Assembly: GCA_900128395.1 (NCBI GenBank)
Contig: LT649556.1
Span: forward strand, 1-20,539
Length of the DNA stretch: 20,539 nt
Source of the DNA: Stramenopiles sp. TOSAG23-2
Lineage: Eukaryota; Sar
Direction: 5' to 3'
The translations under genes were made by a program, and so were the position numbers. This document shows positions 2,854-20,539 of this stretch, in pieces (positions within the stretch are counted from its first letter, which is position 1; each line of letters begins with the position of its first letter). The notes below the pieces were generated by a model. It saw only the letters and a program-made list of their open reading frames with translations. It ran no database searches and had not been told where the DNA came from.

Positions 2854-3148
2854 TTTTATATAGTGCTATTTATATGCTAAATTTCGAAATAATAAATAAA
2901 TAATAAATAATAATTAATAGATAGATCTAATAATAATAAATAATAAATCAACAATACTACTAAATCAAAAACGTAGATGACGTTGATATATATATATATA
3001 TATAAACATCATATGAAAAAATCTAATGGACAATAATATCCCCAACCCATGTAAATATATATATATATAAACATCATATGAAAAAATCTAATGGACAATA
3101 ATATCCCCAACCCATGTAACAAAATTGTAACATCTAAAAAGTAACAAG
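2654..3148. other. Intergenic, UTP23 to FIH-like gene
   Basis: This 0.5-kb spacer lies between two genes on the same strand. It holds the second copy of the UTP23 tail duplication, an AT-rich stretch with many AATAAA-like words (2880-2960) that could serve polyadenylation, and a 65-bp duplication just before the hydroxylase start. No further gene is seen. Confidence 0.6.
2990..3119. repeat. 65-bp tandem duplication upstream of the FIH-like gene
   Basis: Bases 2990-3054 and 3055-3119 repeat each other. Each unit is an (AT)n run followed by a unique stretch ending in CCAACCCATGTAA. The second unit ends 30 bases before the ATG, so this sits in the likely promoter or 5' UTR of the hydroxylase gene. 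Confidence 0.92.
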
Positions 3149-4459
3149 ATGGAAACGATACCAAAAAATAATGTAGATACAAAAAAACAAAAAACTTCGA
3201 TATTATTTCAACATGTACAAAATATTCCACGATATGAATGGAAAGATCCAAAAGCATTTGAAGCAATGTTAAAACAACAACCTATTGTTATTACTAAAAC
3301 TAATTTAGCTGGTAAAGGTTTAGAAAAATGGTATGATTTAGATTATTTAGGTGAAAATATGTCCCCTAGTGCAATGTTTCATACATACTTTTGTGAAAAA
3401 ACATTCTTATATTCCGATAGAAATGGTAAAAAAGGTCATCCGTATATTTTTGATAATAAAGTCAGAGAAGTAGAAATACCATTTCTTCAATTTAAAAATT
3501 TATTGGAGAAAAAAATAAATAATAATAAACATAATAATGATGATGGTGATGAATTAATTTACCTTCAACAACCATTATATGCTGGTATTGGAGAAAATAT
3601 TACAAAAGATTTCTCTTCTATGAATTGGGCATGGGTCAACGCAATGAGAATGCAATTGGATTTTGGACCATTAACGACAAATACACTTTTAATAGGTCAA
3701 GAAGGTTCAACAACACCTTTACATTTTGATGAGCAAGAAAATTTCTTACATCAAATTGGTGGTACAAAAACATGTTATTTATTTGCTCCTTCGTATTATA
3801 AATATTTTTATCCATATCCATTGCAACATCCATGTGATCGACAATCTCAAATAAATTTTGATGCAATAGATTTTGATCGATTTTCAAATATGCGTGATAT
3901 CTGTTGTAATGATAAAGAAGAAGAAGGAGAAGGAGAAGGAGGAGGAAATAACAATGTAAATGAAAAAAAGGAAAAGAAGAAGAATTCAAATAAAAAACAA
4001 TATTATCATGGATATAAATGTGTTTTGGAACCTGGTGATGTTCTTTATATTCCAAGGTATTGGTGGCATCATATAATAAATGAAAAAAAGACCAGTATGG
4101 CTATTAACTTTTGGTTTAAACCACCAGATTTGGATAAAGAAATATTAAATCAGATTCCTATTACAAATCCTGATATTAAAGTGACATTAAGTCGAAATAT
4201 TGAAAAACTTGCATTAAATGAATTAAAAAATAAACATAAAGTAGCAAGCTTTTTTAAATATCATGATGATAAATTGAATGGGAAAAAAACAACTACAAAA
4301 ACAGGAAAGATAATTGAAGGTTACGAAGAATACTTCAAAGTAGTTAAATCACGTTTAAAATTAGTTTTACGTGAAGAGGATATAGATCCTTTTTTAAGAG
4401 ATTATTTATTTAATGGGAGATTTTCAGGGGTTAGGGTTATAAAATATACGGCCGTATGA
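3149..4459 (+). CDS. FIH-like (HIF1AN family) JmjC asparaginyl hydroxylase
   Basis: This 436-residue Fe(II)/2-oxoglutarate dioxygenase resembles FIH, the enzyme that hydroxylates Asn in HIF-alpha and in many ankyrin-repeat proteins. The JmjC core carries the iron triad H192-x-D194 (TTPLHFDEQENF) and H307 (IPRYWWHHI), a 2OG-binding Lys at K208 (GGTKTCYLF) and the substrate-contact stretch HPCDRQSQ (R231, Q232). The C-terminal helices match the FIH dimer region (KVTLSRNIEKLALNEL, near 344-360). A lineage-specific insert (about 252-287) of Glu/Gly and Lys/Asn runs interrupts the core. Compared with human FIH (349 residues) it also has a longer C-terminus. The gene is tail to tail with an ankyrin-repeat gene, a plausible substrate. 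The stop codon lies within a TACGGCCGTA palindrome and a 123-bp tandem duplication. Confidence 0.88.
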   Translation: METIPKNNVDTKKQKTSILFQHVQNIPRYEWKDPKAFEAMLKQQPIVITKTNLAGKGLEKWYDLDYLGENMSPSAMFHTYFCEKTFLYSDRNGKKGHPYIFDNKVREVEIPFLQFKNLLEKKINNNKHNNDDGDELIYLQQPLYAGIGENITKDFSSMNWAWVNAMRMQLDFGPLTTNTLLIGQEGSTTPLHFDEQENFLHQIGGTKTCYLFAPSYYKYFYPYPLQHPCDRQSQINFDAIDFDRFSNMRDICCNDKEEEGEGEGGGNNNVNEKKEKKKNSNKKQYYHGYKCVLEPGDVLYIPRYWWHHIINEKKTSMAINFWFKPPDLDKEILNQIPITNPDIKVTLSRNIEKLALNELKNKHKVASFFKYHDDKLNGKKTTTKTGKIIEGYEEYFKVVKSRLKLVLREEDIDPFLRDYLFNGRFSGVRVIKYTAV

Positions 4460-4616
4460 TAGATGTAATCAGAGAGAGTGTGTGAGACACGAGGTGAAGA
4501 GGATATAGATCCTTTTTTAAGAGATTATTTATTTAATGGGAGATTTTCAGGGGTTAGGGTTATAAAATATACGGCCGTATGATAGATGTAATCAGAGAGA
4601 GTGTGTGAGACACGAG
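4371..4616. repeat. 123-bp perfect tandem duplication over the FIH-like stop codon
   Basis: Bases 4371-4493 recur at 4494-4616. The unit encodes the last 29 residues of the hydroxylase plus about 34 bases of flank. Both copies carry the TACGGCCGTA palindrome, so that palindrome predates the duplication. Confidence 0.95.
4447..4456. repeat. TACGGCCGTA micro-palindrome at the end of the FIH-like gene
   Basis: A perfect palindrome supplies the last codons (Y-T-A-V) just before the TGA, and its duplicate lies at 4570-4579. The mirrored flank in the right arm shows TCATATATA where this arm has TCA-TACGGCCGTA, which fits a TA-n-TA insertion. The flanks soon diverge, so that comparison is short. 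Confidence 0.5.
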
Positions 4617-4940
4617 GGTTTACATGAAAATATACGCACACACAACAAATTTACGTTCGTATATTTTTATATATATATTATATTACGAGAAGTGTAAAAT
4701 TATAATTTAATTTACGCATAATTTATTTTTAATTTACTCATGATAATTCCTACTCTTCAAAAGAATAAAATAACTGAAATAATCTATCTCACACTACAAG
4801 TGTGTTGATATTCTCATAATCGAAAATACCAATGTAAAATTATTATAACTTTAGATTTTAACCATCATAATCATAGATTATAAAATATAAAAAAAAAAAA
4901 TAATGTTTTCGTACATAATAAAGTTTGTGTTTTTATTCAT
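4460..4940. other. Convergent intergenic region, FIH-like / ankyrin gene
   Basis: This spacer lies between two stop codons. It contains the second copy of the hydroxylase tail (4494-4616), a TACGTTCGTA palindrome at 4652-4661, and AT-rich DNA that would hold the 3' ends of both transcripts. AATAAA (read on the minus strand) lies close to the ankyrin stop. No gene is seen. Confidence 0.6.
4652..4661. repeat. TACGTTCGTA micro-palindrome
   Basis: This is identical to the site at 61-70 and is again in 3' flanking DNA. It is a candidate TA-n-TA footprint, with no second copy available for direct comparison. Confidence 0.4.
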
Positions 4941-5116
4941 TTAAAAATCACCATTGCCTCTTCCAACTCTTCTACCATTTGCATCATAAATGTTTGATTT
5001 TCCACCTTTTGAACGTAAAAGTCCAATGATCTCTTGTTTAATTGGACTATCATTATATTCATATGCAAGATCTAATAGAGTTTGTCCATAATCATCCATT
5101 TCATTAATATCATCAA

Positions 5117-5374
5117 TCTTAGTTAATGCTTCACGTACGACTTCTATATCGGATCCTATTACTACTGCATGCCGTTCAACATTTAAATCACCATTGCCTC
5201 TTCCTACAATTCTACCATTTTCATCATATTTATTTGCTTTTCCACTCTTAGTTAATGCTTCACGTACGACTTCTATATCGGATCCTATTACTACTGCATG
5301 CCGTTCAACATTTAAATCACCATTGCCTCTTCCAACTCTTCTACCATTTGCATCATATTTATTTGCTTTTCCAC
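5117..5374. repeat. 129-bp in-frame repeat in the ankyrin gene
   Basis: The two units (5117-5245 and 5246-5374) have a period of 129 bases or 43 residues. They differ in the linker (DENGRIVGRG versus DANGRRVGRG). Being in frame, the repeat inserts a shortened extra unit (GKANKYD to REALTK) into the C-terminal array. Confidence 0.85.
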
Positions 5375-5493
5375 CTTTTAAACGTAAAAGTGCTATGATG
5401 TCTTGTTTAATTGGACTATCATTATACAAATATGCAAGATCTAATACAGTTTGTCCATAATCATCCATTTCATTAATATCATCAATCTTAGTT

Positions 5494-5735
5494 AATGCTT
5501 CACGTACGACTTCTATATCGGATCCTATTACTACTGCATGCCGTTCAACATTTAAATCACCATTGCCCCTTCCTACAATTCTACCATTTTCATCATATTT
5601 ATTTGCTTTTCCACAATGCTTCACGTACGACTTCTATATCGGATCCTATTACTACTGCATGCCGTTCAACATTTAAATCACCATTGCCTCTTCCTACAAT
5701 TCTACCATTTTCATCATATTTATTTGCTTTTCCAC
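5494..5735. repeat. 121-bp frame-breaking tandem duplication in the ankyrin gene
   Basis: Bases 5494-5614 and 5615-5735 match with a single C/T difference. The join (TTTTCCAC-AATGCTTC) is abrupt and shifts the frame by one, turning EALTK into EALWKSK followed by a stop. Confidence 0.92.
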
Positions 5736-6651
5736 CTTTTTGACGTAAAAGTGCAATGATATATTGGCGATTACATGCATATGCAACGCCCAGGGGAGTG
5801 GATCCCCACCATAACCTGGACAGAGAGTCTGCAATGGACGTCTTCTTATTAATGCTATCAAGAGACAGATGAGATAATAACAATTTAATCAACTCAGTAG
5901 TCATTCTGCCATTACTTGCTGCATAGTGTAATACATTCCATCCATCACTATCTGCAATATTAGGATCAGCTTCACCTTGTTCAATTAAATATTGAACTAC
6001 TTGGAAATGTCCTTTCTTTGCAGCTATCATTAAAGGTCTCTTATCCCAACCACCCCAATTTGTACCGACTTGATTCACGTATTCTCTCAATGTCATATTA
6101 CTATTAATACCATTCATGCATGTAATAAATAATTTCACATCCTGTAAACGCCCTTTTTCACATGCACATACCAATGGCGTGCCTTCTGGGAATTCGGTTT
6201 CATAACGATCGTTTAAACGATTCAAAACATTTTGATAATATATATCACGTATTGTCGGTACAGTTAAAAATCGTTTTGTTGTTTTTCCAAACATATTCAT
6301 TAACGCTTGACCATCGTTACCAAGATATGGTATTATAGTTTTCACACATATATCATCAATCCCAGGCAATCTTGAAAAGTCACGCTTTACTACCTTTTCC
6401 ATGCATTGTTTATCTTGTTGCCTCACTTTAAGATGCACCATTGTTTCCATTCGTTCTAAAACACCTTTCTTGTTTTCTGGTGTAAGCTCACCATTACCAT
6501 TAGATAATTTATCATACATTGTATTTATAAAATCATCAATAAATGGTACTAATGAAATTGTTTTTATTTGTGATGTATTATTATTTTGTGTAGTTATTGC
6601 TGACGTCCTCGGTCTTTTTGCTGGTGGTGGATTGATAGTTAACGATGCCAT

Positions 6652-7071
6652 GTTGTTGTTATATGTGCTGTGTATGATATATATATATATATATGTTTGT
6701 TTCTCTTGTCAAATATATTTCTTATAATTCTATATTAGAGTATATATTATATATATTTTTAAAAATAATAATATTTTTTACATACACGCATACAACACGT
6801 ATATATTTTGAAAAAAAATTGATGATGATTATTTTATATTCAACGAAGCAGGAATACACACACACACACCGCGCAGTAAACACACACAACACAATTTCTC
6901 ATTTATATATCATATTAATTTACAATGGAACTTGACTTAACTTATAATTCGTCTTTGCTTTTGGCATTGTCATCCATCTACCTTTCTTTTCATATTCCGT
7001 TTTGACTTGTTGAATGAATGAATTATTAATTTCACGCTCAACTTCATCCATAGCAGCTATATCATATTAAT
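6652..7071. promoter_or_regulatory. Ankyrin gene promoter and coiled-coil gene 3' flank
   Basis: Both neighbours are on the minus strand, so the ankyrin promoter and leader lie at the left of this spacer. The ATG is preceded by ATAACAACAAC, with an (AT)n run at 6677-6694. A (CA)n tract lies near 6855-6870. The right part is a detached copy of the end of the coiled-coil gene (6906-7057). No independent gene is seen. Confidence 0.5.
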
Positions 7072-7209
7072 TTACAATGGAACTTGACTTAACTTGTAAT
7101 TCGTCTTTGCTTTTGGCATTGTCATCCATCTACCTTTCTTTTCATATTCCGTTTTGACTTGTTGAATGAATGAATTATTAATTTCACGCTCAACTTCATC
7201 CATAGCAGC
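6906..7209. repeat. 152-bp tandem duplication over the coiled-coil gene stop codon
   Basis: Bases 6906-7057 recur at 7058-7209 with one difference (CTTATAATTC versus CTTGTAATTC). The mirrored copy in the right arm has only one unit, carrying the second copy's G variant and the first copy's outer flank. The single-unit form is therefore probably ancestral. Confidence 0.93.
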
Positions 7210-8625
7210 TCTGGCTTCTGCTTTTCTAGCATTGTCTTCACTAATTTGACGTATTAAATCACGACGATATTGTTTCTTATTTTGTAATCGTTTTTTAACA
7301 TCATTATCTTGCAATTTTAATTTTTCACTAGCAATTTTATTCATCTTAATTGCAAACTCTCTATCTTTTTTTCTTAACGCTTCTTCCTCCTCCCTTTTTC
7401 TTATAATTGCTGCATCAATCGAGGCCATCATGTCACGTTTCATCTTCTCTTTCTTCGCAATCGCAGCTTTTTCTTTGTCATCAACTCTTTTTTGTTCTGC
7501 TTCCCGATGTCGCTTATTTCTAGCTTCTTCAGCAGCAAATATTGCTGCTTCATTATTTTGCGTTGCTTGACCAATGGCAGTCAATTTATGCTGGCGTGCA
7601 TATAGATCAGCTAATCTTTTCTCACGTGCCCTTTCCTGTTTATCAAGAATTTCTTTCCATTGCGCATCGATTCTAGCTTCTTCTTCCCACATTTTCTTCT
7701 TTTGATTCTCACGCATAATCAAAATCTGTGCATTTTCTTTTTTCACAATTTCCAATTCTTTCTGTTTGCGCAACATATCACGACGTTTTTCTTCTTTTTC
7801 ATCCTCTAATGCTTTTTTTTGCCTTTTAACAATTCGCATTTCTTCGAAATGTTTTTGTTTACGCGCAGCATCCGTACGACGTTTTGTTTCCTCCAGTTGT
7901 TTTTTTCTTTCTTGTTGAATCAACTGATGTTGTCTTAAACTTCTGCGTTTAATTTCTTTTTGCTCTTTAATCCATTTTTTCTTTTGCATTTTTTCATATT
8001 CTAGCCAATACTTTTTATCTTCATTTGCCTTGATTCTCTCTGCATATTTTGACTCTTCTTGTTTTTTTAAATATGACTGTATATCTTTAGCATGCTTACG
8101 CCTAGCTGCTTCTTTCTTCTTTGCATCCATTTCACTTTTTTCTGCAGAAAACATATTTAACATTGCCCATTCATTTGTCTTTGCACCTTCTTTTCTCTTA
8201 ACATAAAAGTTTGACTCTGGCACATCTGATACTATTTTTTGTGTCGGCAAAGAAGTCTTTGCTGATTTTATAGCTTCTTTCATTTCGTGTTGAAACTTTT
8301 TCTTTGATTTTTTCTTTTCATATTTATTTCTTGGATCTGGATAATGATCAATTCGTTTTAAACGATTAGGATTACCAATACTTGCTTTATTGGTTATTTT
8401 AACTCGTTTTAAAAATTCGGTTAAATTTTGATCTTTTCCATGGTCATTTCCATGTATCCTATCATGTCGTATTTTACGTGCACGTGCATGTTTCCGTGCT
8501 AACTCTTTAGCATGCATATCATTCATTATTTTTTTTTTCCTTGCAACTTTATCTTCACCAGATGCACGTTTCCTAGATGATTGTGCTGCATTTTTTGCAT
8601 ATATTTGTAACATTCGTGTCGTCAT
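7072..8625 (-). CDS. Long coiled-coil protein, TPH/ciliary-type
   Basis: This 517-residue protein is highly charged (Lys, Glu, Arg). Its N-terminus is basic (about 1-130) and a nearly unbroken helical coiled coil follows from about 165 to 500, with stretches such as EKMQKKKWIKEQKEIKRR and RKREEEEALRKKDREF. The composition and periodicity resemble trichohyalin-plectin-homology proteins of the CFAP45/CFAP53 kind, which lie inside ciliary doublet microtubules, but no diagnostic motif lets me fix the family. It ends in a Pro/Lys-containing tail (MPKAKTNYKLSQVPL). The ATG follows an AAAC-repeat leader. The last 136 codons are copied in inverted orientation at 19242-19649 with no amino-acid change seen. 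Confidence 0.7.
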   Translation of the reverse strand: MTTRMLQIYAKNAAQSSRKRASGEDKVARKKKIMNDMHAKELARKHARARKIRHDRIHGNDHGKDQNLTEFLKRVKITNKASIGNPNRLKRIDHYPDPRNKYEKKKSKKKFQHEMKEAIKSAKTSLPTQKIVSDVPESNFYVKRKEGAKTNEWAMLNMFSAEKSEMDAKKKEAARRKHAKDIQSYLKKQEESKYAERIKANEDKKYWLEYEKMQKKKWIKEQKEIKRRSLRQHQLIQQERKKQLEETKRRTDAARKQKHFEEMRIVKRQKKALEDEKEEKRRDMLRKQKELEIVKKENAQILIMRENQKKKMWEEEARIDAQWKEILDKQERAREKRLADLYARQHKLTAIGQATQNNEAAIFAAEEARNKRHREAEQKRVDDKEKAAIAKKEKMKRDMMASIDAAIIRKREEEEALRKKDREFAIKMNKIASEKLKLQDNDVKKRLQNKKQYRRDLIRQISEDNARKAEARAAMDEVEREINNSFIQQVKTEYEKKGRWMTMPKAKTNYKLSQVPL

Positions 8626-10384: not shown

Positions 10385-13300
10385 TCAACTAAAATCAATA
10401 TCATCGCCTCCTAAACCCCAATCACTACTAAGTGCGATATCAAGTTGATGTTTCATTACTTCAAAAGAAGAATATTTGGGTAACTCGACGTTAAAAAAGC
10501 AAGTATCTGCTGTGGGTAACAACATATCAGGATTTCCAGATTTAGTTGACGCTTTTAAAAGCAACCTTGCACCTTTTTCATTCCACTCCCGATCTGAACT
10601 TGGGATTCGTTTTTGCCCCCATGCAAATTTAATAAATCTTCTCCTTTCATCATTAGAATACGATTCTAAACATTTCCAGAAAAATGCGATTCGTGGATCC
10701 TCTTTTGCCATTCCAGAATACTCTGTATGCCGTTTTAATAATTCGATATCTATCTCTGGCGTACCGCAAATTAGCATTTCTAATTCAGACCAATTTAAAA
10801 TCCACAAAAGTTGTGGTGGAACAATCGCTACTAATCCCCTGGCAACCGCTTTGATTTGATTTATAGGTTGAATTTTTAATAAAGATTGTCCATCGACTGA
10901 TTTATCAACTGCTTCTAAGTCTTCCTTTGTGACTTCCTCGCCAACTAGTGGTTTCCAGAATAACGATGGTAAATCCAATGCTAGCTTCACCCCTGTTCGC
11001 AATGCCATACCCATTATTCGTCCCAAAAATTCATATTTTTTTAATGACAAATAATCCGTACGTCTTGCTCCTGGAATGAATTTTTCTCTATTCTCACCAA
11101 AACTCAATAGTTGATTTGGACATGGGACCAACAATGAAAGAAGACCATCAGGGGATTGTAACTCCCTGCATATCTCATCAAAAAATTCTCTATATGGTCC
11201 ACCCTCACCAACAACATGTTCTTTTTGAAATTTAACTTCAAAGGCCAAATGTGGAGGTGCCATATCAGCTGTGCGTGGGCGTAATCTCCATGGATTTACT
11301 TTTTCTAATCCTAGGAATTGTTCCATTGCTTGGCCAAAAATTGTATATTCTTCCCCATTTTGCAGAGCAGATGCTGCGGTGTAACGGTTAATAACGATCC
11401 GTGGTCTTTCCGGTTCGGATGAAGTTGATGTTGCCTCTAGCATAGATGACACTATTTGAAACTTCACATTTGAGAAAAACAAGTTACGACATTCGGAAAA
11501 AAATTTACTTATGGATGAATTCAATTGAATAAATTTATAATTTGGCCAACATAGAGTATCTTTCAAAACAAAATTTATCCGATTTAAGATTAACCAACGA
11601 AGGTGTAAGAGTTCAACTGGGATATTTTGTAACGCTTTATAGCTAATTGGCATTGCAGCTGATTTAATGGTTTCTATATTGACCCTGTTGTTACTTTGCA
11701 TTATATTCGATGCTAATGAGACTAATGTTTCATCCGTATTGAGTTTGAATGTATTTTTCATTAGTAATAAAACATCTTCAATACCTGGGCCCAACTTTTG
11801 AACAACATCACTATGTTCTCTCCACAAAGCAAATACAAACTTAATTGGGACAATTTTACTGCTTCTTATACATTCCAACACATCTAAGCATTCAAGCCAT
11901 TGTTGTAAATGTTTATCCAGCGAGGGCATTTTTGGCCGTGCAGAGTGAATGACACCAGCAATTGATTGCAAAAGCGTAGATGGCAATTCTCCTTGTTGTC
12001 TTAAAAATGATAGTTCTGTGCAAAGCGGTGCCAAAATATGTCCATATTCAAACTTCGTCACGTAAAATAACTCGCGTAATACGGCATGGGCTCTTATTCT
12101 GAAAATTTGGGGCATTCGTGGGGCATAAGAGAAACGGGCACAGACATTAATATAGGAACGCAAAATTTCCCCAACATCAATCTTTTCCTCTCTTTCAATA
12201 CCATCTAAGTTGCCATTGATCATTTGTAAAATCAACCAAAATGCAAACTTCATCTTAGTTGAAAATGGTGACACTTGAAACATAACAACTGAATCATTTC
12301 CCGTATTTCGAAAAGTTTGTCGCTTAAATCGCATCCATATTGAATTATATGGTAAAGTAATAGATAGCAGCGGTTTTCGAATTGATCGCAATAATGTGGT
12401 GCATGATGAATCATTAAAAATGTCTATCGTATCATCATCTCTTAATTTACATTGTTTAGAAAATTGTAATAAAATGCCCATTCCCTCTGGAACTTGAATA
12501 TGTACACGCCGTCGCCCGTGATGCGGTAAGGTTACATCCATCGTATATCTTCTTATTCCCCTCATCACGTTTTCTAATAAATGTATTGGTGTTTCCGGCT
12601 TTTCGCAAAGTAGTTTCTTTGCATATGAAATCAACGATGGTGAATTTCGAAATTTAGAATCATGTGCATATTCCAACGAAACATTAAACAACATATCCTT
12701 CGAATAAACAGTCTCGTCGGGATCATCTAGAACACCACTCTCATCGCCTTTGCTATTTGCAATTTCATCTTTATAATCATTGTGGGTTTTTAACAACTTC
12801 AATCTGATAGCAAATGAACGAGAAAGCAGTTTCATATAATCTTTTTCAGCATTTAAAAGAGTATCGTCAAAAGCAATTGTTGTGGCACTTGATTTTTTCA
12901 TTATACCTTCTTCATCTGTGTTTCTATTCTTAATAAAATCAATTTTACTGCCATAACCAAATAGTATACTCTCATCTACACATACAGCAACCAATTGCGA
13001 TGGTCTAAACCACCATCGCTGATAAATATTTTTCTCGTTGTCCTGAAATTCTACAAATGCAATCTCTTTTACTAGATCTATTTTAACAACTTGGCCAACG
13101 TAACCATGTAAATCTTCTAAGCCAGAATTTTGCTGCGTATCGTGGTTGCTTTCCTGTATAATTCGCACTGCCATTCCGACCCATATTTCTTCCATGTGAA
13201 GCGAACGTCCGACGTATTGCAAACAATAACCGGTATTAAGAAACTTATCATTACCATCCAGCTCAACTGGCATCGGAGGTAATGACAACCCGATGTCATC

Positions 13301-16300
13301 CAACATCATTCGAGCCATTGCAATATTTTCCGAGCCACCAGATTGCAACACTTGTAAAATTAATTGACTAGTCCTTGGGGGTATATGGCGCTGTTGTAAT
13401 AATGCAATTATACTTTCCAACCATTCCATTTTTTTCTGTGAAATACCTCGGGAACCACTTGAATGTAGATATACTTCCTCTTCCTTTGAAAAACATTCCA
13501 TCGGCATAATGTGTTTCAAGCTTGATTCTACAATCACCGTTGAGCTCGTTGTATGATTGAAGCAGGCCAACTCCAATGCCACTTTTGTTTTCCACGGTCT
13601 AACTGCACGCCTTCTTAAAATATGGATATCGCTTTTTTTTGATTGTTCCTTTTGTGAATGGTCCGATAATTTTTCATCGATATCGTTTGTTGGAGACCCT
13701 AAACGCCCACTTCCACCACCGTCCCTATCACTTGTAGTAAATTTCTCTGACTGTGTGTTTCGTATCATATTTGTATCTTTCGTAATTTCTAAGTCGTCGA
13801 CAAGACCTTCCCAACTTTCTCGCTCCGGGAAAAATACAATAGCGGACGCTAAATCACTTCCTGGTGCATGGTGAATGGCCCTTATAATGCCTACACAGTC
13901 ATGGTTGATTCCATCCCAGCCTAATACAGGCTCCATGACGGTATTCCTAACTTTAACGTAATCTCCAACTTGAATGACATCATCGCTCTCCCTTGTTTCG
14001 TATAGCATTTCTTGCTTTTCTACGCTATGTTCTGTTGTAGACGCTGTATCTTTAGCTTCACCATCAGGTTTGCCCGTTTGGTGTTCATTGATATTATTAT
14101 CATTCTTATCACCATCATTATTATTTTCATCTGAGTGATTGCTTCTGTTTGTAGTATTTTCTGCACCCGTAGTATCTTTACCTGATGGGTTCACTCCAGT
14201 TTTCAAGATTATCGTTTCATTGTCACTATCTGCAAGTCTTTGTTTGATTATTTCACCATCTTCAAAACTTATCATGACAGCTGGAATTCGTATATCTAAA
14301 CCATCATCAGTATCATTTTCAGGAAGACCCATTCGCCAATCTTTTGACAATCCTTCTGTTGATATAACTAAGACTCCCAGTGCGCCAGCAGATTGGCAAT
14401 TACGAATTTTTACGCTAAAAGCAACGTTGCCTCTATCAACTAATACGCAGCAACCAGCGACATCAGCTGCATTATTGAGCGGAGTTTCTGCATATGGTGG
14501 GTCTGCAATTTTAATTTGCAAATTTAGTCCCGGTGCTGGAGGTGGTGCTGGTGCAAACGATGAGACATTATGATTCAAATATCTCCCTGCAAACACAACG
14601 TGGCTGTGTTTAGCACATTCTTCAATTATCGTTTGATCATTTGATAAGTTTGATAATTCTTCGGCGTGTGTTAAAGCCCATTCTGCAGACCTTTGAGGAT
14701 CTTGTCCATGCGCCTCCAATACTCGCATCATTGCTTGTATCATATTTTCACCTCCATCAAACATATCTGCAAGTGGGATAGCCATTTGACGGCTATACCA
14801 GCATTCACACGGTGTAATTGGTTCAACAGTTCCTATATGAATATCTTCTTCTACTTTTCTTGCAATTTCTTCATCTATTTTTGCCTGTGATAGTCGTATA
14901 TTGTGATAATGAAGCATTCGCTTTTGGCGATCTATCGTCGTGCTGCTGTTAACGCTATTGATACTGTTGCTGTAAGAACCCCTTCCTTCTGGTGCCCCGT
15001 ATACAAACGGGCTATCCTTACCGAAATTAACCCGCAAAGCTGCACATTGGTTCGAAAATGCAACAGCTGGATAAAATATCCCGAAGACGTTAGTAAATGC
15101 TAAACCAAGTGGTTTACCATTTAAAGTGTAAAATATTGTCCCTTCATCTGCGTTCCAACCACATCCAACAACATCGCCAACTTGACCAAAAGCTTCAGTA
15201 AATGGACTCTTTTCCATAAACCCAGCAGGTCTTGGGCCTCGTGTGTGTGTACGAAACGGTGCAATCTTTTTGGATGATTTTTCCATCCAAATGTTCCATT
15301 TATCTTCCCAACCGATAAAATGCACCTGTATCTGTGTCTTATCCTCACTTTCTGCAATAACTCGAGCAGGTCTCCAACGAACAACGCCGGTGTAATCCTC
15401 TATGTCCAACGGTGCTCCCAGTCGAAAATCTACTTCGTGTGATGCACCAAGGGAGGACCATTGAGCTTTTTCGCCACTTTTTGAGTATACTGAATAGCTT
15501 CCAAGTCCCCATTCTAAACCGGTATTGGTTGTATCTGTTCCAGGGACGTCAGACCAAAGGCCAACAGAAAATCCCGGTTTATCCTGCATGAAATTGTATG
15601 AATCAACTGAAACGACTGTCACTTCAAAATAAAAATTAGAGGCTGCTGCTGGAATTGGATCGTTTGCCACTACTACTACACACTCTGAACGTCGTCCAGG
15701 GGCTTGTTCCGCTCTCCTAGGGTCTTCTTTTAATTTACGAAAAGGAAACCCAGCAAATTGTACCGTGTCCGCTATCAATCTTGGACTTTCCCCTTCAAGT
15801 AAATTATCATCATCACTGGCACCCACTTTATTTTCTACAAACATCATATGCCACGACAATTTTGTATTCCAACCAACAGGACAAGATAGATTGCTATTAG
15901 ATTTATGTTTTTCCAGTAAAACTACATTATCATCGCCTGTTTCTGTTGGTATATCAGTAATCTTAAATGCAGCGGCCGTAGCACGAGCTTTTATGTCACT
16001 TGGTGTAAGAATGGTTGATGATGGTTGCCCAATCGATTCGACCCAAGAAAATGAATTTGCAATGCGTTCAGTAAATACAGATGGATTTACATGCACTAAA
16101 TTGGTTAAAAATCTAAAAACGCGAGTTTTTAAAAAGGTATAACTCCAATGATCGCGTACCCCAATAGTTTTTGATCTATCAGCGGAGGATGACACTAAAG
16201 ATAAATCTCGTTGCAGAAAATTATTTATTGCCTTAAAATGCTTTTCGGTAAATAGTGGGTTTAGAAGCTCTACGACGCCACGAGAAGGAATTTCATCCAT

Positions 16301-19291
16301 TTTTCTAAGCTCCTTGAAGGATATTGTAATTGGTATAGAGTTATTGTTCAATAAAACTGTTGCAGAACCTTGTGCGTAATTCAACGATAAAACATTTCCA
16401 TATAAACGAGGCGCTGTATTGCACGTTAAAACTTCCACTACATTTCCAATCGACAACAAGTCGTTTTGTTCTAACGAACAAACAGTAACAGCACCTGTTA
16501 TCATTTCTTTCTTCGTCTTGCCAAATTTTTCAAATGACGTCAAATCACACCAAGAGTGCGCAACTAATTCATTGATAACACTCTTCCATGACGTATTACA
16601 AATCAACCATCGCAACAACAAAACTAGTTCCTCCGTCAACGCAGTCCGTGCAGCAAAAGAATAGCGCTCGCCATGCGAGTTATTGCCAAATTTTTCTCTT
16701 ATTGCATCATTTCTTAGAACAGCATCGCTAGAAACTTTTTCAACTACAATGGTTTGTAGTCCGGTTGTTGCAAGAGTTTTTGCATTGTTTATACATTCAC
16801 GACGCGAGCCTTCGAGGACAACAGTGTATTCTTTCTTTTGGTCTGCATAATCAGCTTGTACCAAGTCTACAACAACTGTTGAGTTGCACATGTTTCTTGG
16901 GGACAAACTTTGGACTTTTCTTACTATTTCATCATATGGAACGCCTGCATTCAAACAAACCAGCACATTGTGAACTGGTGGCATAGAAATGCAGCAAGAT
17001 CGTGAAAATCTAGCGTTGTCTTTTTTCGTCGAGGCGCCGCAATCACAGTAAAACCTACTGCGCGTGGCAAAAACAACGTCATGGCCAAAATGGCATGTTT
17101 TGGCACAAATTGCACACACTCCATTTTGTTCTATTAAGCAACATGTCAAACAATGATACCAATCCTGCTCAACATGTTGTTGTCCTGTATCACTAAACGT
17201 GCAAAACTTTTCTTGTCCATCTTGTGTTGTAAAAACTGTGTTATTTTCTCTCAATTCTGAATGTTTCCTTTTCCTCGATAAGACTACTTTCGCAAGTTCC
17301 TCGTTATTTACATCTACTTTGCTAGGAACGCGTTTATTCTTATTAATATCATGAACAAGAAGCAGACTTCCGATTTTCTTAAACAACTGATTCACTGTAT
17401 TTATCGATGAATGATTTTCATTACCGGGTTCTTTCTCTCCTTCTTGCTGAGATTTTTTAACAGCACGTAATTTATTGTATCTAGGAAGTATGAAGCGTAG
17501 CAATCGAATGCAAATTCGTTGTACCCTTAACGTCATGCAACTACCATTTCCTACGATCACGCTTAATATAGCATCTTTCGGCTCTGCAAAGAGCTCGAAT
17601 GGATAATTTTTCCAAGCTATAGAGTCACAATGATCCGCTAATATACATAGCAATCCATGTAATTCACGTTCGTTTTTGTAGTATTTATATTTCAACGCTT
17701 TAAATACTACATCAAAAAATATTTTTTGAATTCGAACAGGGGATGATCTGTCCTCCTCCTCTCCAGATTTTGAACTGATTGTTGTTTTGACACTTGTCTT
17801 TTGACTGGCGGAGATACCAATGCTATTATACTCATTTTCAGGAACCGAAGATTTAATCACGTCATTCCACCCTAAACAAACCGTAGCTAACTTTGAAAAT
17901 GCTGACCATGTTGCATAGCGGAGCTCGGCATGGGCTTTTTCTATATATAAAAATTCTCGCTCTCCAAAATTGAATTGTACCGACGAAGATAAAGGCATGG
18001 AAAGTGATGGGTACATGCCACCCGTATTTTCAAATTGCTGTGACTTGATTAAATTTGTGATTGGGATGCTTATTTCTATATGACCATTCACTGTTACGTA
18101 TAACTTCGAGTTTTCAAAATTCAATCCAATACCAACAACATCATTTATACCAAAACTGGAAACACGCGCATTTCTACCATCATGCATTACTAAATATTTT
18201 CCATTTACACTGATTTTCCCGTTCGAATTAAATGAAAAAATAGATTTTTCATCATTAAACAAGTCTGGACTTTTGCGCAATAGATCACCGTACAAACTTA
18301 CAGTAAATGCGGGCTGTTGTTCTTTTGACTCAAGAAATTTGACTTCAAAATACGATAAATTAGCAGACAGGGACTGATCGCTGCAAACGATTGAGACTAA
18401 ATCAAATGGAGATTTTCCTTGGTTTACTTTAAATCGATCTCTCATAGGGGAAATAAAACTTAACCAAGCGGGGTCGTGGCTTTTATCTTCGGGTGCTGGA
18501 GTTGGTGAAGATGAAGGTGAGCGAGTATTGTTTTCTCCATCTTTTCCAATTAAAGTTGAAGGCACCTTAAATAAACGATTAGAACTTTCATTTATCCATT
18601 CATTCCATCGCTCGGACCATCCTTTGAATTTCACTAAATATTCGATGCCACTAAGATCTTTATTAGTTCGGTTAGCAATGATTATACCAACTCTTTTTAC
18701 ACCAGTCATATATTTATCAATGATATAAACTTCATCGCCAGTACTCATAAGGTTTGAAAGAGATATAATATCGTTATCTACTGCAACTGCTAATGGGTTT
18801 GTCTTTGTATAACCACGGAAAGCAATATGTTCTATACCGATATCTTCGTCTCTATTCTCGCCATTCATTAGTTTGACAAATAAATATTTTCCACGCATAG
18901 GCTTCTCAAACACTATCGTGCCGCTACATAATCGGCTACTAGAAGCGTTTTGTTTGTCTAATTCTATCAGGACTCCGCCAGTACAATTCTTTGGCTTCTT
19001 TATGTTACAAAATGACTTTTTTGTACAATTGCCAAAAGCATTAAAATCATCTAAAGATGGTAGAATGGATGTTGAAAATATTGCAATCGATGTCACAGGG
19101 GATGCAAATGGGTTTTTGTAAGGACATCGCAAATACACAGCAGTCAATTCAAACTCTTCTACTGTTTTTGTTGTCAAAATTACGTTAACATTTTGTCGCA
19201 TCCTACTTCCTGCGTCCGAACAATATACCTGAGAGTCATTTGACAAAGAAAAAGCTGCGATTGCGAAGAAAGAGAAGATGAAACGTGACAT
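10385..19291 (-). CDS. Giant multidomain HECT E3 ubiquitin ligase with UBR box
   Basis: The open frame has 2968 residues. HECT enzymes take ubiquitin from an E2 onto a cysteine and pass it to substrates. Domains in order: a beta-rich N-terminal region; a chromo-barrel (about 182-245, VKFKGWSERWNEWI); SPRY (about 275-450); a UBR-box zinc finger for N-degrons (about 690-765, WYHCLTC, CAICAKTCHFGH, FYCDCGA); a second SPRY (about 1215-1420) with a chromo-barrel inside it (about 1298-1347, FIGWEDKWNIWM); UBA-like (about 1510-1548); a protease-associated (PA) domain (about 1583-1685); two MIB/HERC2-like beta domains (about 1770-1834 and 2034-2100); and HECT (about 2640-2966) with catalytic Cys2931 in TADTCFFNVELPKYSS. 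The HECT N-lobe seems shortened after LEAVD. Residues 1-17 are antisense to a copied piece of the coiled-coil gene, so this start is unreliable. M31 (19199-19201) is the first Met outside it, and the true 5' end may be missing. Confidence 0.9.
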   Translation of the reverse strand: MSRFIFSFFAIAAFSLSNDSQVYCSDAGSRMRQNVNVILTTKTVEEFELTAVYLRCPYKNPFASPVTSIAIFSTSILPSLDDFNAFGNCTKKSFCNIKKPKNCTGGVLIELDKQNASSSRLCSGTIVFEKPMRGKYLFVKLMNGENRDEDIGIEHIAFRGYTKTNPLAVAVDNDIISLSNLMSTGDEVYIIDKYMTGVKRVGIIIANRTNKDLSGIEYLVKFKGWSERWNEWINESSNRLFKVPSTLIGKDGENNTRSPSSSPTPAPEDKSHDPAWLSFISPMRDRFKVNQGKSPFDLVSIVCSDQSLSANLSYFEVKFLESKEQQPAFTVSLYGDLLRKSPDLFNDEKSIFSFNSNGKISVNGKYLVMHDGRNARVSSFGINDVVGIGLNFENSKLYVTVNGHIEISIPITNLIKSQQFENTGGMYPSLSMPLSSSVQFNFGEREFLYIEKAHAELRYATWSAFSKLATVCLGWNDVIKSSVPENEYNSIGISASQKTSVKTTISSKSGEEEDRSSPVRIQKIFFDVVFKALKYKYYKNERELHGLLCILADHCDSIAWKNYPFELFAEPKDAILSVIVGNGSCMTLRVQRICIRLLRFILPRYNKLRAVKKSQQEGEKEPGNENHSSINTVNQLFKKIGSLLLVHDINKNKRVPSKVDVNNEELAKVVLSRKRKHSELRENNTVFTTQDGQEKFCTFSDTGQQHVEQDWYHCLTCCLIEQNGVCAICAKTCHFGHDVVFATRSRFYCDCGASTKKDNARFSRSCCISMPPVHNVLVCLNAGVPYDEIVRKVQSLSPRNMCNSTVVVDLVQADYADQKKEYTVVLEGSRRECINNAKTLATTGLQTIVVEKVSSDAVLRNDAIREKFGNNSHGERYSFAARTALTEELVLLLRWLICNTSWKSVINELVAHSWCDLTSFEKFGKTKKEMITGAVTVCSLEQNDLLSIGNVVEVLTCNTAPRLYGNVLSLNYAQGSATVLLNNNSIPITISFKELRKMDEIPSRGVVELLNPLFTEKHFKAINNFLQRDLSLVSSSADRSKTIGVRDHWSYTFLKTRVFRFLTNLVHVNPSVFTERIANSFSWVESIGQPSSTILTPSDIKARATAAAFKITDIPTETGDDNVVLLEKHKSNSNLSCPVGWNTKLSWHMMFVENKVGASDDDNLLEGESPRLIADTVQFAGFPFRKLKEDPRRAEQAPGRRSECVVVVANDPIPAAASNFYFEVTVVSVDSYNFMQDKPGFSVGLWSDVPGTDTTNTGLEWGLGSYSVYSKSGEKAQWSSLGASHEVDFRLGAPLDIEDYTGVVRWRPARVIAESEDKTQIQVHFIGWEDKWNIWMEKSSKKIAPFRTHTRGPRPAGFMEKSPFTEAFGQVGDVVGCGWNADEGTIFYTLNGKPLGLAFTNVFGIFYPAVAFSNQCAALRVNFGKDSPFVYGAPEGRGSYSNSINSVNSSTTIDRQKRMLHYHNIRLSQAKIDEEIARKVEEDIHIGTVEPITPCECWYSRQMAIPLADMFDGGENMIQAMMRVLEAHGQDPQRSAEWALTHAEELSNLSNDQTIIEECAKHSHVVFAGRYLNHNVSSFAPAPPPAPGLNLQIKIADPPYAETPLNNAADVAGCCVLVDRGNVAFSVKIRNCQSAGALGVLVISTEGLSKDWRMGLPENDTDDGLDIRIPAVMISFEDGEIIKQRLADSDNETIILKTGVNPSGKDTTGAENTTNRSNHSDENNNDGDKNDNNINEHQTGKPDGEAKDTASTTEHSVEKQEMLYETRESDDVIQVGDYVKVRNTVMEPVLGWDGINHDCVGIIRAIHHAPGSDLASAIVFFPERESWEGLVDDLEITKDTNMIRNTQSEKFTTSDRDGGGSGRLGSPTNDIDEKLSDHSQKEQSKKSDIHILRRRAVRPWKTKVALELACFNHTTSSTVIVESSLKHIMPMECFSKEEEVYLHSSGSRGISQKKMEWLESIIALLQQRHIPPRTSQLILQVLQSGGSENIAMARMMLDDIGLSLPPMPVELDGNDKFLNTGYCLQYVGRSLHMEEIWVGMAVRIIQESNHDTQQNSGLEDLHGYVGQVVKIDLVKEIAFVEFQDNEKNIYQRWWFRPSQLVAVCVDESILFGYGSKIDFIKNRNTDEEGIMKKSSATTIAFDDTLLNAEKDYMKLLSRSFAIRLKLLKTHNDYKDEIANSKGDESGVLDDPDETVYSKDMLFNVSLEYAHDSKFRNSPSLISYAKKLLCEKPETPIHLLENVMRGIRRYTMDVTLPHHGRRRVHIQVPEGMGILLQFSKQCKLRDDDTIDIFNDSSCTTLLRSIRKPLLSITLPYNSIWMRFKRQTFRNTGNDSVVMFQVSPFSTKMKFAFWLILQMINGNLDGIEREEKIDVGEILRSYINVCARFSYAPRMPQIFRIRAHAVLRELFYVTKFEYGHILAPLCTELSFLRQQGELPSTLLQSIAGVIHSARPKMPSLDKHLQQWLECLDVLECIRSSKIVPIKFVFALWREHSDVVQKLGPGIEDVLLLMKNTFKLNTDETLVSLASNIMQSNNRVNIETIKSAAMPISYKALQNIPVELLHLRWLILNRINFVLKDTLCWPNYKFIQLNSSISKFFSECRNLFFSNVKFQIVSSMLEATSTSSEPERPRIVINRYTAASALQNGEEYTIFGQAMEQFLGLEKVNPWRLRPRTADMAPPHLAFEVKFQKEHVVGEGGPYREFFDEICRELQSPDGLLSLLVPCPNQLLSFGENREKFIPGARRTDYLSLKKYEFLGRIMGMALRTGVKLALDLPSLFWKPLVGEEVTKEDLEAVDKSVDGQSLLKIQPINQIKAVARGLVAIVPPQLLWILNWSELEMLICGTPEIDIELLKRHTEYSGMAKEDPRIAFFWKCLESYSNDERRRFIKFAWGQKRIPSSDREWNEKGARLLLKASTKSGNPDMLLPTADTCFFNVELPKYSSFEVMKHQLDIALSSDWGLGGDDIDFS

Positions 19292-19649
19292 GATGGCCTC
19301 GATTGATGCAGCAATTATAAGAAAAAGGGAGGAGGAAGAAGCGTTAAGAAAAAAAGATAGAGAGTTTGCAATTAAGATGAATAAAATTGCTAGTGAAAAA
19401 TTAAAATTGCAAGATAATGATGTTAAAAAACGATTACAAAATAAGAAACAATATCGTCGTGATTTAATACGTCAAATTAGTGAAGACAATGCTAGAAAAG
19501 CAGAAGCCAGAGCTGCTATGGATGAAGTTGAGCGTGAAATTAATAATTCATTCATTCAACAAGTCAAAACGGAATATGAAAAGAAAGGTAGATGGATGAC
19601 AATGCCAAAAGCAAAGACGAATTACAAGTTAAGTCAAGTTCCATTGTAA
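19242..19649 (+). pseudogene. 5'-truncated copy of the coiled-coil gene
   Basis: The frame opens at the inverted-repeat breakpoint (DKEKAAIAKKEKMKRDMM) and runs 135 codons to TAA, matching the C-terminus of the gene at 7072-8625 with no amino-acid change that I can see. The first in-frame ATG is at 19278. There is no native promoter: upstream DNA is the antisense of the HECT gene's 5' end. It lacks the 152-bp tail duplication of the parent gene. It is most likely non-functional, although a 123-residue product could be made. Confidence 0.85.
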
Positions 19650-19805
19650 ATTAATATGATATAAATGAAAAATTGTGTAGTGTGTGTTTACTGCGCGGTG
19701 CGTGCGTGCGTGTGTGTGTGTGGGTATTCCTGCTTCGTTGAATATTATTTAAAATAATCATCAATTTTTTATCAAAAAATCTCGTACGTGCACACGTGTA
19801 AAAAA

Positions 19806-19813
19806 TACGAGTA
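19806..19813. repeat. TACGAGTA: TA-CGAG-TA insertion relative to the left arm
   Basis: The left arm, reverse-complemented (near 6772), reads AAAAAATATTATTATT. Here it reads AAAAAATACGAGTATTATTATT. A single TA is replaced by TA-CGAG-TA, a six-base gain that duplicates the TA. Confidence 0.7.
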
Positions 19814-19834
19814 TTATTATTTAAAAATATAATA

Positions 19835-19846
19835 TACGAAGTCGTA
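19835..19846. repeat. TACGAAGTCGTA palindromic insertion
   Basis: An inverted repeat (arms ATATACGA/TCGTATAT around AG) lies inside an AT run that is plain (AT)n in the left arm. The AT run makes the exact alignment ambiguous, but the CG-containing core has no left-arm counterpart. Confidence 0.55.
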
Positions 19847-19907
19847 TATATATATACTCTCCAATATAGAATTATAAGAAATATATTTGACAAGAGAAAC
19901 AAACATA

Positions 19908-19925
19908 TACGTATATATACTCGTA
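19908..19925. repeat. TACGTA and TACTCGTA within an AT run
   Basis: The left arm has an uninterrupted (AT)n run here (6677-6694). The right arm has TACGTA (19908-19913) and TACTCGTA (19918-19925) breaking it up. The form fits repeated TA-n-TA insertions, with alignment uncertain inside the run. Confidence 0.5.
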
Positions 19926-19936
19926 TGTATATATCA

Positions 19937-19945
19937 TACGAAGTA
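19937..19945. repeat. TACGAAGTA: TA-CGAAG-TA insertion relative to the left arm
   Basis: The left arm (reverse complement near 6673) reads ATCATACACAG, and here it reads ATCATACGAAGTACACAG. Flanks match on both sides, so a single TA has become TA-CGAAG-TA. This lies about 25 bases before the mini-ankyrin ATG. Confidence 0.7.
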
Positions 19946-19968
19946 CACAGTTCACATATAACAACAAC

Positions 19969-20261
19969 ATGACATCGTTAACTATTAACCCACCACCAGC
20001 GAAAAGACTGAGGACGTCAGCAACAACTACACAAGATAATAATACATCACAAATAAAAACAATATCATTAGTACGAACGTACCATTTATTGATGATTTTA
20101 TTAATACAATGTATGATAAACTATCATCTAATGGCATCAATCGTAGTGTAATTCGCCAAGAGATCATTGCACTTTTACGTTCAAAAGGTGGAAAAGCAAA
20201 TTATTATAATGATGAAAATGGTAGAAATGTAGGACCAGGCAATGGTGATTTGAATGAATAA
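19969..20261 (+). pseudogene. Miniature ankyrin-gene copy without ankyrin repeats, frame broken
   Basis: The start (MTSLTINPPPAKR) matches the ankyrin gene at 4941-6651, and the end (EIIALLRSKGGKAN, then NGR and GNGDLNE) matches its C-terminal unit. All residues from about 52 to the last unit are absent, so the ankyrin and F-box-like regions are gone. An 8-base insertion (TA-CGAACG-TA at 20072-20081) shifts the frame after ISLV. Subtracting 8 from the 293-base span leaves exactly 95 codons. As it stands, translation ends after about 60 residues at 20151. The leader ATAACAACAACATG is kept. An AATAAA follows the old stop. Confidence 0.8.
20072..20081. repeat. TACGAACGTA: TA-CGAACG-TA insertion in the mini-ankyrin copy
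   Basis: The left arm reads ATTAGTACCATTT and the right reads ATTAGTACGAACGTACCATTT. The flanks match perfectly, so this is the clearest case: one TA becomes TA-CGAACG-TA and the frame is lost. Confidence 0.8.
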
Positions 20262-20282
20262 AAAACACAAACTTTATTAATG

Positions 20283-20293
20283 TACGAACCGTA
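20283..20293. repeat. TACGAACCGTA micro-palindrome
   Basis: This is the same 11-mer as at 10178-10188. The left arm has GTACGAAAACATTA at the matching place (near 4905-4915), so part of the motif is shared and the right arm differs by CCG. The history is unclear. Confidence 0.4.
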
Positions 20294-20326
20294 TTTTTTT
20301 TTTATATCACTCTCTCTGATTACATC

Positions 20327-20333
20327 TACTGTA
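20327..20333. repeat. TACTGTA: TA-CTG-TA insertion relative to the left arm
   Basis: The left arm (reverse complement near 4460) reads GATTACATCTATCATA, and the right reads GATTACATCTACTGTATCATA. TACTGTA is the textbook excision scar of Tc1/mariner elements with CAG-type ends. Confidence 0.65.
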
Positions 20334-20361
20334 TCATATATATCATATATATAACGAAATT

Positions 20362-20371
20362 TACGCACGTA
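20362..20371. repeat. TACGCACGTA micro-palindrome
   Basis: Arms TACG/CGTA flank CA in right-arm DNA that has no clear left-arm counterpart. The form is the same as the other candidate footprints. A related TACTTCGTA lies at 20431-20439. Confidence 0.4.
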
Positions 20372-20453
20372 CCACTCCTCTCCAATCACACTTTATATTT
20401 TCGCTCTTCTATAGCACACCTCGCATGATATACTTCGTATAACATATTATATT

Positions 20454-20539
20454 TTATTGATTTTCTGTACATAATTCACACCCAGAAAATCTCCCATTAA
20501 ATAAATAATCTCTTAAAAAAGGATCTATATCCTCTTCAC
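20454..20539 (-). pseudogene. 3' end of a second FIH-like gene copy (cut by window edge)
   Basis: On the minus strand this reads EEDIDPFLRDYLFNGRFSG, identical to the C-terminal region of the hydroxylase at 3149-4459, then diverges (CELCTENQ) to a TAA. The reading frame is open to the window edge. The match stops at GATTTTC, and the following 130 or so bases have no left-arm match. Whether a whole second hydroxylase gene lies beyond the window cannot be told, so 'pseudogene' is provisional. Confidence 0.6.

Follow-up and report, generated by a model that had tools for sequence, protein, structure and literature searches.

Which process could leave a few bases between two TA dinucleotides in one copy of a sequence, at places where another copy has a single TA? 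This question is raised by the window analyzed here, which is the whole of contig C323 (20,539 bp) from an assembly of 17.45 Mb in 793 contigs. The window contains an inverted repeat, and four micro-insertions were found on the plus strand of its right arm: TA-CGAG-TA (TACGAGTA, 19806..19813), TA-CGAAG-TA (TACGAAGTA, 19937..19945), TA-CGAACG-TA (TACGAACGTA, 20072..20081), and TA-CTG-TA (TACTGTA, 20327..20333). As the first-pass annotation of this DNA had reported, each of them faces a single TA with matching flanks in the left arm, namely, 6772-6773, 6673-6674, 6547-6548, and, for the fourth, 4460-4461 together with its tandem copy at 4583-4584. The insertions were read back by script, and the first three are also visible in the arm alignment; the fourth was paired by eye because this alignment fails beyond about 20180. 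Three other plus-strand blocks lie in low-complexity DNA where the alignment is ambiguous: TA-CGAAGTCG-TA (TACGAAGTCGTA, 19835..19846) inside an AT run, and TA-CG-TA (TACGTA, 19908..19913) and TA-CTCG-TA (TACTCGTA, 19918..19925) inside a TA run.

The insertion at 20072 sits in the ankyrin reading frame of the right arm, where eight extra bases shift the frame. The same site is a plain TA in the left arm and in four ankyrin paralogues, of which C326 has one and C577 three (two of the latter have one changed base beside the site). Because these five sequences lack the insertion, the right arm has gained it, and 20072 is the only site of the window for which the direction of change is established.

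The inverted repeat itself was confirmed. The initial 423 bp of the right arm (19241..20539, plus strand) match the left arm exactly (19241-19663 is the reverse complement of 7058-7480). The remainder, starting at 19664, corresponds to the left-arm region down to 4371 in a diverged and shortened form. The left arm (4371..7480, minus strand) carries the empty TA sites, as seen in the arm alignment and the script read-back. The 423-bp identity stops at a 152-bp tandem duplication (99% identity) in the left arm. In addition to a UTP23-like PIN protein, a JmjC/cupin protein, an ankyrin-repeat protein, and a coiled-coil (TPH) protein, the window encodes a giant HECT protein, the reading frame of which (10385-19291, minus strand) crosses the arm boundary at 19240/19241 and extends into the inverted arm; the boundary thus cuts the gene, and its true start is missing. 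Together with the end of the identity at the tandem duplication, this cut gene suggests that the arms probably represent two haplotypes of a single locus connected by a chimeric join, which may stem from assembly or from single-cell amplification. A biological inverted repeat is, in our best reading, the less good account of the arms. The UTP23-like protein has mostly oomycetes as its closest named relatives (~40% identity) and shares 74-100% identity with unnamed environmental proteins; the DNA is likely that of a stramenopile-like protist.

Adjoining direct duplications of 65-152 bp with 98-100% identity are found at 216-493, 1732-1973, 2620-2853, 2987-3116, 4371-4616, and 6906-7209 of the window. 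These are likely contig overlaps that were left unmerged, and similar duplications are present in L030, L032, and L034. As a separate observation, L009 (contig C577) holds ankyrin-repeat genes in an array of nearly identical copies, along with large inverted repeats.

Dispersed repeats provided an independent test of the TA pattern. Families A and B are non-coding repeats that were found with query sequences taken from L036 and the window; the searches gave at least 48 and at least 50 matches, respectively, and in each of them 40 candidates (out of 281 and 331) were scored. We took 88 short stretches (75, then 13 more) and added the copies from the window, L011, L031, and L036, which resulted in 94 alignments (46 for family A and 48 for family B) that total 13.4 kb and cover about 1,900 TA sites. 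L029, L030, L037, and L039 were excluded from this set as partial matches or diverged. Four loci carrying these families had no match in Rfam. The copies differ by only 1.65% substitutions, so the insertion events are recent.

Comparison with other genomic copies had been proposed in the first-pass annotation, and in families A and B the TA is duplicated around 30 of the 57 distinct insertions of at least 3 bp (TA-x-TA), each carried by single copies of these young repeats. When the same strings were placed at random positions, a mean of 3.6 of 57 fitted (maximum 11 in 2,000 trials). TA ranked first among the 16 dinucleotides; AT, which overlaps TA, was second with 17. For CG-containing insertions, 8 of 16 fitted the rule (null mean 1.2, maximum 6). 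An earlier run with fewer copies, which included L030, L037, and L039, gave 19 of 48 against a null of 2.9, and a cruder all-against-all comparison, undirected and with no clean-up, had 54 of 341 places fitting the rule. The outcome depends to some extent on the consensus: the L106 insertion was TA-CGT-TA in the earlier run and was uncounted in the run with 94 alignments. The four differences between the arms are real, and they do not set the arms apart as such, since the same pattern is found at other sampled places of the genome.

The rule-fitting insertions have a common vocabulary. Eight of the 30 are of the CG type (CG twice, CGAAG, CTTCG, CGAACG, CGAGTCG, CGAAGTTCG, and CGCGTG), 13 are of the TG/CA type (TGA four times, TCA, TCATA, TGCA three times, TGGCA, and three longer ones), and nine are plain or repeat-like. 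The insertion in L129 that follows the TA rule is 30 bp long; it is a piece of family A, with a possible longer duplication, and it was excluded from the CG and TG types. One TA of family A was struck repeatedly, with CGAAGTTCG, CTTCG, and CGAGTCG found there in three separate copies. The strings of the window recur as well: CGAG within compound insertions of L071 and L126, CGAAG in L128 and, reversed, in L065, and CGAACG in L031. The two strings that are ambiguous in the window, CGAAGTCG and CG, are clean insertions in the family A copy of L011 and in L103 and L107, respectively. The TA rule and the CG-starting strings shared by unrelated sites point to defined element ends. CTG and CAG are absent from the 30 TA-rule insertions of families A and B, which leaves TACTGTA alone in this data set, and its designation as a classical mariner scar was not supported.

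The CG type is also evident outside the repeats. Unselected intergenic DNA (38.7 kb) contains 23 TA-CG...CG-TA blocks, whereas an order-2 Markov model predicts 2.6 (~ninefold; maximum 8 in 100), and GC...GC control blocks are not raised (2 against 1.3). In the same DNA, TG...CA blocks are not enriched (27 against 25.4), and the counts for CA...TG, CC...GG, and GG...CC are 36 against 27.2, 5 against 2.4, and 2 against 1.8, respectively. The TGA end type is thus supported by the insertions alone. With repeat loci included, CG blocks number 44 against 5.5 expected in 66 kb. A TG-type enrichment that first appeared with repeat loci included (68 against 42.5) was gone in unselected DNA. Likewise, the apparent excesses of CC...GG (34 against 3.9), CT...AG (53 against 19.2), and GT...AC (26 against 13.2) with repeat loci included were rejected because each is dominated by one family A or B string. 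Counted over the whole assembly, there are 1404 occurrences of TACGAGTA and 413 of the pattern read backward, and TACGNNCGTA has 646 sites against 351 for its control, with both controls matching base content only. Word statistics over the whole sample were diluted by coding DNA; once open reading frames are masked, the signal becomes visible.

Our preferred explanation, to which we assign a probability of about 0.6, is that the micro-insertions were left behind on excision of transposons of the IS630-Tc1-mariner kind, which target TA; the ends of these elements would be of the CGA type and, less securely, of the TGA type. A cut-and-paste element of this kind would enter at a TA and duplicate it; on exit, staggered cuts would leave a few terminal bases at one flank or at both, and these leftover bases would be sealed between the two TAs by end joining. 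CG, CGAG, CGAAG/CTTCG, and TGA/TCA could then be one-ended scars, and CGAACG, CGAAGCG, CGAGTCG, CGAAGTTCG, and TGCA could be two-ended scars. Two end types would be implied, namely, CGA.../...TCG and, with less security, TGA.../...TCA. The scar lengths are 2, 3, 4, 5, 6, 7, 9, and more (>10), whereas a single enzyme would be expected to cut with a fixed stagger; this range fits a stagger only if both one-ended and two-ended joining took place. Together with the missing element, these varied lengths are the reason that the probability is kept at this level. The first-pass annotation had proposed scars of the Tc1/mariner type. Its TA rule is borne out by the repeats; from the strings left between the TAs, we infer that a longer element was formerly present there and that an enzyme of this kind moved it.

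Several known systems resemble the pattern in part. Footprints of Tc1/mariner elements such as Sleeping Beauty and mariner are alike in that the TA is duplicated and a few terminal bases remain between the TAs. The differences are that the strings here begin with CG or TG rather than CAG, that they range from 2 to >10 bases in length, and that the element is not visible. Minos, in turn, leaves a TA-CGAG-TA scar. For IS630 (ISY100), the likeness consists in the TA target and an IS630-like DDE_3 gene in this genome, but a two-base stagger would not account for the four- and five-base scars, and the gene found here is without terminal repeats. The ISY100 transposase is described as cutting inside the 5' ends by two nucleotides, and those of Sleeping Beauty and mariner by three, such that the overhang becomes the scar (PMC2170065, PMC7827188), and irregular excision scars are on record for Hsmar2 (PMC3770610). 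The internal eliminated sequences of Paramecium are also bounded by TA and absent from the sequenced genome. Unlike here, where extra bases remain between two TAs, their excision is precise and restores one TA.

A direct indication of the parent element was sought in the genome. We read ~243 kb including the window, with some overlaps (~1.4% of the genome of 17.45 Mb), and found no intact TA-flanked element with terminal inverted repeats, in agreement with its reported absence from the window. The sequences that follow the blocks at the listed TACGAAG, TACGAAC, and TACGAG sites mostly show no relation to one another, duplicated loci excepted, and inward-facing pairs of TACGA ends share at most 11 bp of sequence in the best 30 of 133. 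Among the matches listed for inverted repeats starting at TA, a search that was swamped by contig C577, no CG-ended family was found. The CG strings that recur at unrelated sites point to a CG-ended element family of the kind that had been proposed, and no CGA-ended element was found in the sequence read. The longest insertion in the repeat copies is 57 bp; most of the stretches had ~80 bp of flank, such that longer insertions could escape. Queries with part of each family led to 13 further repeat places, five in family A and eight in family B, none of which had a long TA-flanked insertion. Eight of the 88 copies are partial: two start at contig starts, one enters N and cannot be judged, and for the other five the missing part is absent from the stretch examined. 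BLAST comparison of 37 contig ends (one of which is N) gave no CG-ended family, and several of these ends belong to one of the two families or to a ~3-kb repeat. This non-coding ~3-kb repeat is located at about 868-3933 of L016 (contig C3), and parts of it are present where C2, C6, and C18 begin and where C4 ends. It was rejected as the parent element because it lacks a long reading frame and is not bounded by TA plus inverted repeats.

A search for a DDE transposase, which had also been proposed, returned one full IS630-like gene and two partial relatives. The open gene in C111 (L029 1309-2442) encodes a DDE_3 transposase of 377 aa (59.4 bits, cut-off 28.6) and is the sole full match in the genome; the partial, weaker relatives are in C492 and C150. 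No terminal repeats were found around the C111 gene, and hence none with the ends of the scars; this transposase is perhaps domesticated. Its environmental relatives comprise 14 proteins, with the best at 99%. Since B-like sequence is present at the 3' end of the C111 transposase gene, a tie between family B and this transposase was considered and was not adopted. In the window, a family B copy (4704..4832, plus strand) is nested in a family A copy (surrounding region 4682-4868) between 11-bp direct repeats (4693-4703 and 4833-4843). Family B is for this reason not treated as TA-targeted, and its insertion into A is as expected of a retroposon-like sequence.

Other explanations were weighed against excision footprints. 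An unlikely one is that a TA-directed process inserts the short blocks, or that a domesticated TA-cutting transposase strips the sequenced nucleus of elements, with scars as the only trace, in a sloppy, ciliate-like elimination. It would fit the many scars in young repeats with no element in the sequence read, and the full-length IS630-like gene without terminal repeats could encode such an enzyme. However, we know of no germline-soma split in this organism, nor of nuclear dimorphism or a germline copy, and no element has been demonstrated at any site; moreover, the sequence read covers only ~1.4% of the genome, and a short-read assembly may conceal repeats. More doubtful still is an imprecise programmed elimination outside ciliates, by which a host process driven by a domesticated TA-cutting transposase removes TA-flanked elements such that young repeats have many scars and none of the elements survive in the sequenced nuclear DNA, or cuts and refills bare TAs.

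Of a likelihood between these two is ordinary mutation, such as slippage, tandem duplication, or polymerase-theta-like filler in AT-rich DNA, combined with a selected CG motif. The 27 of 57 insertions that break the rule, the nine plain or repeat-like ones that fit it, the TG...CA blocks at their expected number, and the abundance of TA in AT-rich DNA are in line with it. Nevertheless, the same strings placed at random sites fit far less often than observed, the CG strings are identical at unrelated sites and yet are not copies of their flanks, and a selected motif is not expected at varying TAs of dispersed repeats. Errors in consensus or assembly are very improbable. The contig does contain many adjoining duplications with near identity, and one of its joins interrupts the HECT gene, but random errors would have no common vocabulary, whereas here a few of the same strings recur between TAs across many contigs.

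Among the papers listed on excision footprints and related subjects, mainly on active elements, MITEs, and ciliates, none was seen to describe a genome in which TA scars are numerous and the element is not visible. If the reading as excision footprints is true, many small intergenic indels of this genome would record transposon traffic that is missed by annotation of intact elements. Young dispersed repeats would then serve as a scar counter for insertion and excision, even when no element survives. The contrast between recent scars and no visible element would also pose a concrete question, namely, whether the parent is extinct, unassembled, or eliminated.
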